Positions 36,027 to 38,896 of a DNA stretch of 64,000 nt are shown here, piece after piece (the first letter of the stretch is position 1; each line of letters starts with the position of its first letter). Made by a program: the position numbers and the translations under genes. The stretch comes from Saprospiraceae bacterium. GTDB taxonomy: Bacteria > Bacteroidota > Bacteroidia > Chitinophagales > Saprospiraceae. The notes below the pieces were generated by a model. It worked only from the letters and a program-made list of their open reading frames with translations. It ran no database searches and was not told where the DNA came from. Location of the stretch: assembly GCA_027488855.1 (NCBI GenBank), contig JAIYAV010000419.1:18208-82207 (forward strand), given 5' to 3'.

Positions 36027-37409
36027 TTAACACATTTGATATTCCGGCAAAGTCATCAATCGCATGGTCAGTTGGCGAATGATGCTTTCACGGTCGCTTG
36101 CGGGCAATTCCTTGGTATAGTTTTCGATCGGCAGGGCAGTGGGCGTTAGCAGCAGGTATTTGGCCAGTTCGGTGGCAATTTCGCTGCTGTTGTTGCCTTT
36201 GATGCTGGCACTTAAGGGCTGGAGATTGACGGTATTGCTCAAGCGGCGATTGCCTTTTTCCCGCCCTTCATCCTCAAATTCGCCCTTGGTGCGCAGGCTG
36301 AACTCAGTTGAATTGAACAAATACCCCGGCAAGTTCAGGCGCAACATCAAGGTCGAATTGTCTATCCAGGTTTTGCCGCCCGGCCAACCCGCTACGTTGG
36401 GTGGGTTGAAAAGAATTTGACCCAAGGCTCGTTGGATGAACAACATCCCCATCGGTTGGTCAAACTTCAACTCCACGCTGCGCATCAACCCTGCGGTGAA
36501 TTCAATCGGCGACTTGATGCGATTGCCCATGTTTTTAGCTGCATAAAACCAATCGCTGCTTAAGATGCTTTGCATCAACTTGCCAATGTCGTAACCCGAC
36601 TGGAAAAACTGCTTGCTGAGGGTCGACCCTAGCGTTTCATCCACCTGATCGTTGACGAAATGCCGATAAATTTTGCGCACGATGAACTGAGCGGTTTCGG
36701 GCTTTTCCAGGATGATGTTGATGATGTCTTTGCCGTCGTAAGTGCCTGTTTTGCCAAAAAAAGTCTTGCTGCCATAGTCGTGCCACATCGGGCGAAAGAT
36801 GTAGTCGCCCCGCAAATCGCTGGACCAACCCGTAAAGGCGCGAGCGGCTTCCTTAATGTCCTTTTCGGTGTAATTGCCGCGCCCCAGGGTGAAGAGTTCC
36901 ATCAGTTCGCGGGCGAAGTTTTCATTGGGTTTTTCCTTGCGGTTTTGTTGGTTATTCAGGTAACGAATCATGGCCGGGTCTTGGGCGATGGCCAGTACCA
37001 TGTCGCGGAAATTGCCCAGGGCATGTTTGCGCAGGGTATTCAGGTATTGGATGCCCAATTTGCCGAAGTCGGGTTTGCAGGCGAAGTGGCCGTGCCAAAA
37101 GAAGGTCATCCGTTCCAGCAGGGCACTTTCTTTGGGGTTGGCCATGCGGTTGACCCAATTGACGTTGTATTCAAAAATGCGGCGTTTTTCATCGCGCAGC
37201 ATTTGTTCGAACATTTCGCGGTTTTCCCGCTTTTTTTCCATGTCTTCAGGCAAACCCATTTCTGCCACGGGCAGACTCACTTGCGCCTGACGAGCTTGCG
37301 CGAACAACTCATCGATGGCCTTGCTGATGGGCCAGTCTTTTTTTTGTTGCCACTCTGTAGGGCTGAGGCCAAAACCCGCGCGCCAGTAGAGGTGTTTTAT
37401 CTTTTCCAT
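36027..37409 (-). CDS. DUF1800 family protein
   Basis: 'LYWRAGFGLSPTEWQ', 'MTFFWHGHFACKPD', 'PNENFARELMELFTLGRGNYTEKDIKEAARAFTGW'. Confidence 0.92.
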   Translation of the reverse strand: MEKIKHLYWRAGFGLSPTEWQQKKDWPISKAIDELFAQARQAQVSLPVAEMGLPEDMEKKRENREMFEQMLRDEKRRIFEYNVNWVNRMANPKESALLERMTFFWHGHFACKPDFGKLGIQYLNTLRKHALGNFRDMVLAIAQDPAMIRYLNNQQNRKEKPNENFARELMELFTLGRGNYTEKDIKEAARAFTGWSSDLRGDYIFRPMWHDYGSKTFFGKTGTYDGKDIINIILEKPETAQFIVRKIYRHFVNDQVDETLGSTLSKQFFQSGYDIGKLMQSILSSDWFYAAKNMGNRIKSPIEFTAGLMRSVELKFDQPMGMLFIQRALGQILFNPPNVAGWPGGKTWIDNSTLMLRLNLPGYLFNSTEFSLRTKGEFEDEGREKGNRRLSNTVNLQPLSASIKGNNSSEIATELAKYLLLTPTALPIENYTKELPASDRESIIRQLTMRLMTLPEYQMC

Positions 37410-37564
37410 GTCCGCAATTTGTATTTGTGATGGCTTTGACCTTGGATAAGATACAGGGTTTAATCCAAAAACCTTAAAGGGTTGTTAAAAATGGGCACTT
37501 ATCATTAAAGTACGTTTAGCATAGAGTTGGTTTTTTATGTAATTTTGAGCACAATTGCAAATGT

Positions 37565-37981
37565 ATGGCAAAGGATTTGTACCATGAACATGTGCGTGAA
37601 GCTCTTATTGTTGATGGTTGGAGCATAACTCACGACCCCTACTATTTAGATTTGGACGATCGAGCGCCGATGGAAATCGATCTAGGAGCTGAAAAGTTAC
37701 TTTGTGCAGAAAGAGGGACGGAACAGATTCTAGTGGAGGTAAAAAGCTTTATTAATCGCTCGCTTACCTATGATTTTCACCAAGCTTATGGTCAATTTAG
37801 AATATATAGGAGGGGAGTAGCAAAGGTAGCGCCTGAGCTAATTTTGTTTATGGCTATTCCAGAAGACGCTTATATTGAATTGCAAACTAGACCCTTTTAC
37901 ATGGAACTTATCGCGGAAGAAGACATCAAGCTTTTGGTTTTTAATCCATTGACTAAAAGAATTTCATCATGGATACACTGA
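37565..37981 (+). CDS. XisH-family protein
   Basis: 'MAKDLYHEHVREALIVDGWSITHDPYYL', 'MEIDLGAEKLLCAERGTEQILVEVKSF', 'YGQFRIYRR'; PD-(D/E)XK-like D...EVK. Confidence 0.9.
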   Translation: MAKDLYHEHVREALIVDGWSITHDPYYLDLDDRAPMEIDLGAEKLLCAERGTEQILVEVKSFINRSLTYDFHQAYGQFRIYRRGVAKVAPELILFMAIPEDAYIELQTRPFYMELIAEEDIKLLVFNPLTKRISSWIH

Positions 37982-38313
37982 ATGAATTTCGGGATATAAT
38001 CAAAGAAATTTTAACAGAATATGCTCAAACACGCATACCTGTTAATAACCCAAATCCGGGTTATCAATTGATCTTTGATGAAGAAAGGGATAGTTATTTG
38101 CTCTATCGTACTGGCTGGAAGGAAGAGCTCAAGCGGATTCATTTTTGCGTTTTTCATCTTGATATAAAGGAAGGAAAAATCTGGGTACAAGAAGATGCCA
38201 CTGACTATGATATTGTGGACGTACTGGAATCAAAAGGAATTCCAAAAGAAAGTATAGTGCTGGCGTTTCAGGCACCATACAAAAGACCTTTTTCTGGATA
38301 CGCTATTTCATAA
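37969..38313 (+). CDS. XisI-family protein
   Basis: 'YLLYRTGWKEELKRIHFCVFHLDIKEGKIWVQEDATDYDIVDVLESKGIPKESIVLAFQAPYKRPFSGYAIS'; overlaps xisH-like ORF by 13 bp. Confidence 0.9.
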   Translation: MDTLNEFRDIIKEILTEYAQTRIPVNNPNPGYQLIFDEERDSYLLYRTGWKEELKRIHFCVFHLDIKEGKIWVQEDATDYDIVDVLESKGIPKESIVLAFQAPYKRPFSGYAIS

Positions 38314-38341
38314 GCTCTGGTTCTGCTTCAAAACGCTACTC

Positions 38342-38896
38342 ATGAAAAATTTTCGACACCCTTGTACTTTAATAATCTTAGGTATTTCGACACTATTCTG
38401 CGCCTGTGGGTCGAAACCAAACGGTATTAATACTGCCACCCAGGCCCAACTCATCAGTACCCTGGGTCAATTGGAAAGCCAATTGCGCCAAAGCACTGAA
38501 AGCACCCTGGATACCGCCAAAATCAATACCTTTGTACAAAACGCCGAGATCTTGGCCGAGCGTTTTCCTCAGGACTCCCTCGCACCTTTGTACTTGTTCA
38601 AGGCTGCGGAGTTGCGCCACGCCAGCGGGAAATGGGCCGAGGCGATTGATCTTTGGGGTACGGTAGATGCAAAATTCAAAAACTACCAACGCAGCCCCGA
38701 GGCTTTATTCATGCAGGGCTTTGTGTCCGAAAATGACTTGCAAAATCGAAAACAAGCCATTCGATATTATGAGGTGTTTTTGGCAAAATATCCCGAGCAT
38801 CCTATGGCTGAAGACGCCAGAGCTTTGATTGAAAACCTCAAAAAAGGCATCACCGATCAGGAACTGATCGAACAATTTGAACAACAGCAACAATAG
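38342..38896 (+). CDS. TPR/BamD-like lipoprotein
   Basis: Lipobox 'LFCACGS'; 'FPQDSLAPLYLFKAAELRHASGKWAEAIDLWG...YEVFLAKYPEHPMAEDARALIENL'. Confidence 0.75.
   Translation: MKNFRHPCTLIILGISTLFCACGSKPNGINTATQAQLISTLGQLESQLRQSTESTLDTAKINTFVQNAEILAERFPQDSLAPLYLFKAAELRHASGKWAEAIDLWGTVDAKFKNYQRSPEALFMQGFVSENDLQNRKQAIRYYEVFLAKYPEHPMAEDARALIENLKKGITDQELIEQFEQQQQ

Follow-up and report, generated by a model that had tools for sequence, protein, structure and literature searches.

A recombinase-free, multi-copy XisH/XisI gene pair with toxin–antidote-like evolution in Haliscomenobacter

Introduction

In cyanobacteria, the widespread annotation of XisH and XisI proteins is "fdxN element excision controlling factors"; the founding role of the pair, excision of the fdxN element, depends on the large serine recombinase XisF. 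In Anabaena, both xisH and xisI are jointly required for this excision (PMC4874684), and XisI is among the published recombination directionality factors (RDFs) of serine integrases (PMC5311408). XisH also served as a seed for the PD-(D/E)XK superfamily (PMC1189080). Both families are already known, as is the fact that they occur without XisF: the accessible text of two reports describes xisHI in genomes without xisF, some Bacteroidetes included (PMC4853749, PMC4679880), and that of the former gives four XisH and seven XisI for Thiomargarita. The function of XisHI in non-heterocystous strains was stated to be undisclosed (PMC2674450).

Here, we analyzed an xisH–xisI pair in a 64,000-nucleotide stretch of DNA (the window) from a Saprospiraceae genome assigned to Haliscomenobacter, the genus of H. 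hydrossis. This pair shares with XisH/XisI of the Anabaena/Nostoc PCC 7120 fdxN element the same two Pfam families, the gene order, and the folds of its cyanobacterial relatives, whereas in Haliscomenobacter neither an fdxN element nor a nif gene nor an XisF-type recombinase was found, and the copies are numerous, dispersed, and accompanied by orphan XisI genes. The xisHI genes of Beggiatoa, Thiomargarita, and non-heterocystous cyanobacteria are likewise multi-copy, with more XisI than XisH and no XisF, as far as the accessible text of those accounts goes, and that text describes no tested function; compared with it, the polarity of decay and the selection on orphan XisI are new here. The new element is a recombinase-free, multi-copy XisH/XisI population with toxin–antidote-like evolution, and the main new result is the asymmetry with which the two genes survive.

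Results

The xisH–xisI pair and its proteins

Two open reading frames on the plus strand, overlapping by 13 nt, lie between two unrelated genes. The features of the locus are as follows.

36027..37409, minus strand: DUF1800 gene, left flank (PF08811); the copy in genome G250 is 97% identical
37540..37547, plus strand: Bacteroidota-type -7 promoter element (TAnnTTTG), TAATTTTG, 25 nt 5′ of the XisH ATG
37565..37981, plus strand: xisH, 138 aa, PD-(D/E)XK nuclease-fold protein (PF08814; D39, E58-x-K60, Q77-x3-Y81)
37565..38341, no strand assigned: gained segment of about 776 bp, essentially both ORFs, defined by alignment to the empty G250 site (L063); ends ± about 30 bp
37969..38313, plus strand: xisI, 114 aa, proposed antidote (PF08869)
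38342..38896, plus strand: TPR/YfiO-like lipoprotein gene, right flank (PF13174, PF13525); the G250 copy is 84% identical and adjoins the DUF1800 gene

The first frame matched the Pfam profile PF08814 at 146 bits (E 9e-43; profile positions 3–133 of 134) and the second matched PF08869 at 126.5 bits (E 8e-37; positions 1–110 of 110), each with a cut-off of 25 bits. This search bore out the first-pass annotation, which had read the overlapping frames as XisH and XisI; the PD-(D/E)XK-like signature noticed there in XisH was likewise upheld by the fold and by D39, E58, and K60. D39, E58, and K60 were kept in all 109 paired XisH proteins and Q77 in 105 of them; conservation of the first three is as expected of a working nuclease.

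By sequence, XisH matched the solved cyanobacterial structures 2inb and 2okf, and XisI matched 2nlv, 3d7q, 2nvm, and 2nwv. The predicted XisH model, in which residues 36–42 around D39 had pLDDT values below 50, superposed on 2okf/2inb with TM scores of 0.86–0.87, and combines the PD-(D/E)XK fold with the D...(D/E)-x-K residues. Other fold matches of XisH included AF2093, weakly, and PaqCI, Cap4, McrC, and DdmD at weak E-values of approximately 0.04–0.3. XisH thus shares the D...E-x-K core and the Q-x3-Y motif with PD-(D/E)XK nucleases such as restriction enzymes, McrC, and Cap4, but is a very short single domain whose close fold matches are to XisH structures only. The predicted fold of XisI matched XisI structures only. 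Searches of both proteins against PADLOC, NCBIfam, and PHROGs gave nothing significant. Because XisH and XisI are both acidic, with mean net charges of about −4.7 and −4.8, XisI is not claimed to be a DNA mimic.

Gain of the pair at an empty site

The GC content of the pair was 38.5% versus 48.0% window-wide, a value equally low in just 2.6% of 749-bp stretches, and its GC3 was 0.30–0.35 versus 0.51–0.67 in the neighboring genes. In G250, the nearest relative compared, the DUF1800 and TPR lipoprotein genes lie approximately 155 bp apart with XisHI absent between them, and the corresponding genes also adjoin without XisHI in G239, a member of a more distant genus. Because the flanking genes adjoin without the pair in both genomes, the synteny indicates that XisHI was gained in the source genome, and horizontally, as had been supposed from the sequence of the window. 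Alignment with G250 placed the insertion point after the 5′ leader of the downstream lipoprotein gene and ahead of its start codon. No terminal repeats or target-site duplication were found at the pair, where short repeats occurred at chance level.

The empty site of G250 has the same -7 promoter element at the equivalent position. Across the source genome, TAnnTTTG occurred within 60 nt upstream of 8 of the 14 XisH copies, compared with 0.7 expected, and none of 2000 resamplings reached this number.

Copy number and distribution

The source genome carries 14 XisH and approximately 29 XisI genes. The first-pass annotation had placed the pair alone between DUF1800 and BamD-like lipoprotein genes; the flanks were confirmed, but the pair is one of many in the genome. 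XisI lies directly downstream of every one of the 14 XisH genes, 12 intact XisI genes stand alone, and further XisI genes occur in tandem arrays, for example, XisH followed by three XisI on contig C34. The XisH copies have a mean identity of only 44%, which makes them either independent acquisitions or ancient duplicates. The genes adjoining the 14 pairs are mutually unrelated and largely housekeeping (thymidylate synthase, release factor, and dihydroorotate dehydrogenase). Inspection of the neighborhood lists by eye showed no recurrent partner gene next to orphan XisI.

The complete genome of H. hydrossis DSM 1100 gave 8 XisH and 14 XisI matches. Among 249 genomes sampled from the order, XisH and XisI were found above the cut-off in 12 and 14, respectively, and in the phylum sample XisH was present in 4 of 395 genomes. 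Other close relatives were mostly cyanobacterial, with further ones in Acidobacteria, Chloroflexi, Deinococcales, and others. Plasmid records of cyanobacteria and Herpetosiphon contained 37 XisH and 46 XisI.

Several arrays had complex structures. At L026 4914–7747, XisH, three XisI, and an XisI fragment lie in tandem, adjoined by a PDDEXK_2 (Rpn-type) nuclease-transposase gene. Tandem repeats of approximately 275 bp separate the XisHI copies at L097 5047–8561 of H. hydrossis and also flank the XisI genes of L024 in the source genome. The 3.3-kb contig C49 of G250 (L230) carries four XisI, one XisH, and one XisH remnant, and is a mosaic of the source-genome sequences L022 and L024.

Asymmetric survival of XisH and XisI

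Intact XisH was almost never found without XisI. XisI directly followed XisH at all of the best 80 cross-phylum XisH loci, one XisI being cut by a contig end, and at 38 of 38 loci with intact XisH in the order survey, in which pairing relied on coordinates. The 15 further genomes yielded 102 full-span XisH genes, 92 of which were intact after the doubtful ones were read, and an intact XisI lay beside 91 of these 92. The single exception, L194, combines an intact XisH with a frameshifted XisI; its XisH also carries Q77H, which is only suggestive of an impaired copy. An altered Q77 was dropped as proof of a dead XisH, since a G249 copy with GK at this position keeps an intact XisI. On these comparative counts, XisH does not persist without XisI.

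The reverse state was common. In the 15 further genomes, approximately 27 XisH genes broken by stops, frameshifts, or deletions lay next to an intact XisI, and at least 13 such cases were found in Bacteroidota; both partners were broken in four cases. Breakage of a single partner affected XisH about 40 times and XisI once, and 40 of 41 events falling on XisH has a probability of about 7e-10 by gene length alone; these counts were partly hand-tallied and come from genomes that span many genera and are not phylogenetically independent. Some frameshifts may be draft-assembly errors, which should favor neither gene. The 15 genomes also contained 38 stand-alone XisI. Supported branches of the XisI tree force no fewer than 10 label changes for the stand-alone state, which indicates that it arose many times. 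A tblastn search found no XisH pseudogenes beside the orphan XisI of the source genome; the losses there, if they are losses, were thus complete.

At site B, G249 has XisH–XisI together with a peptidase S41 gene (L241 1572–3598), where the source genome has XisI alone (L039 4983–5434). The junction coincides with the overlap of the two genes, and XisI remains intact; because the difference spans approximately 1.5 kb and includes the peptidase gene, it does not prove which state came first.

Selection on orphan XisI and agreement of the XisH and XisI trees

The orphan XisI at a site common to the source genome, G250, and H. hydrossis had dN/dS values of 0.02–0.03, and that at a second site had a value of 0.05, comparable to those of flanking housekeeping genes. 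Such strong purifying selection indicates that these orphans are in use and are not debris. At a shared paired site, dN/dS was 0.11 for XisH and 0.03 for XisI, based on few changes. Orphan site A was judged not to have reached H. hydrossis by vertical descent because the dS of XisI (0.42) was far below that of the flanks (1.25–1.70), which suggests exchange between congeners.

The XisH and XisI trees agreed overall (r 0.72–0.79), and weakly within the source genome (r 0.25, a value reached in 48 of 2000 shuffles). The XisI of the window (37969–38313) and that of its closest source-genome paralogue (L027 6576–6920) are 64% identical, compared with 48% for the XisH proteins; this reversal of the usual order suggests a partner exchange. 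A paired and an orphan XisI of the source genome (L018 and L032) are 93% identical in protein with saturated synonymous sites, which marks that XisI as unusually constrained.

Discussion

Taken together, the obligate presence of XisI beside XisH, the one-sided decay, the selection on orphan XisI, the intact catalytic residues, the gain at an empty site, and the carriage on plasmids lead us to regard as probable, on comparative sequence evidence, that XisHI is a mobile module of the toxin–antidote type, in which XisI neutralizes a harmful PD-(D/E)XK nuclease, XisH. The toxin–antitoxin-like or nuclease–inhibitor role suspected at first pass thus appears to gain support from the decay pattern and from selection on XisI. 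Judging from its conserved active site and the decay pattern, XisH would be a nuclease that is harmful if active. XisI would presumably be made from the same message via the overlapping start and would neutralize XisH, most simply by binding. The cassette would be captured singly between housekeeping genes. Under relaxed selection, XisH would be lost first and XisI would have to stay, giving a solitary XisI, which would remain under selection, probably by neutralizing XisH from other copies or incoming elements. The benefit of the module may lie in phage defense, in addiction that preserves the cassette itself, or in interactions between cells.

Like XisHI, type II toxin–antitoxin modules consist of two small genes that overlap, spread horizontally, and are carried on plasmids, and in both the antidote, putative in XisHI, outlasts the toxin. 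In XisHI, however, the putative toxin gene comes first, XisI has no recognized DNA-binding domain or known antitoxin fold, and neutralization is predicted from comparative evidence. XisH and XisI are not mentioned by Makarova et al. 2009. Several points run counter to the module: the fold of XisI is distinct from those of known antitoxins and immunity proteins; fdxN excision in Anabaena is a positive role for the pair (PMC4874684); and the two trees agree weakly within the source genome.

Anti-phage defense would use the same machine for a different benefit: XisH would attack invading DNA or kill infected cells, and XisI would restrain it until infection. PD-(D/E)XK nucleases are common defense effectors, and the weak fold matches to the restriction enzyme PaqCI and to Cap4, McrC, and DdmD, the patchy distribution, and the rarity of both genes in viral sequences (none in annotated phage records and just two loci in IMG/VR) are consistent with such a role. 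However, the insertions are solitary and lie amid largely housekeeping genes, and PADLOC models matched neither the pair nor any of the 37 proteins neighboring the pairs. A defense-island context is not favored, the anti-phage suggestion made from the window found no sign of one, and we consider defense unlikely.

Lower still is the probability that XisI is useful by itself and XisH is a dispensable regulator or partner whose loss is neutral, with no toxicity involved. The housekeeping-level purifying selection on orphan XisI and the two-to-one ratio of XisI to XisH in the source genome would follow, but the near-total dependence of intact XisH on XisI, the arrival as pairs at scattered sites, and the absence of both families from most genomes of the order would be left unexplained.

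Control of recombination in the manner of the fdxN element, with XisI as directionality factor and XisH as helper nuclease for a site-specific recombinase, has the founding function of the family and the listing of XisI among RDFs in its favor. However, the Recombinase domain (PF07508) was found in no protein of four Haliscomenobacter genomes (the source genome and three congeners). H. hydrossis DSM 1100, despite its 8 XisH and 14 XisI, has no Resolvase-domain (PF00239) protein, and the only such match in the source genome lies within a short frame of 201 aa. Nitrogenase-type PF00148 had no match in three genomes of the genus; control genomes gave matches in these profile searches. The pair is not bounded by repeats and sits between two intact unrelated genes with no interrupted nif or fdxN gene, and a pair whose members are needed jointly would give no reason to keep XisI alone. 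Given the lack of PF07508 in these four genomes and of any serine recombinase in H. hydrossis, an fdxN/XisF-type role is excluded in H. hydrossis and very unlikely in the source genome. The first-pass view that no fdxN-type element is present thus held, with the absence of an XisF-type recombinase and of nif genes extended genome-wide and to congeners, and we assign recombination control a very low probability.

Least probable of all is an inter-cell effector–immunity system, with XisH delivered to neighbors (e.g., by contractile injection) and orphan XisI as immunity: a machine-learning link places XisH/XisI domains among the predicted eCIS-associated toxins of Moorena (PMC11297309), and the orphan and tandem XisI genes are reminiscent of immunity arrays, but XisH here consists of a single 138-aa domain and carries no delivery domain, and no secretion genes were recognized beside the 14 pairs. 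In the literature covered, which included few subscription papers and preprints, this link came closest to assigning XisH/XisI a toxin role, and priority is uncertain.

Beyond this locus, we tentatively propose, as a distinct possibility, that XisH/XisI overall form a widespread uncatalogued nuclease–antidote family, that fdxN control is a later reuse in heterocystous cyanobacteria, and that solitary XisI genes are a selected antidote repertoire against XisH from elsewhere. If XisH and XisI are a nuclease and its antidote, the annotations as fdxN-excision and recombination directionality factors would mislead, a large toxin–antidote family would so far have escaped counting, and the long-standing puzzle of xisHI in bacteria without xisF would become testable.
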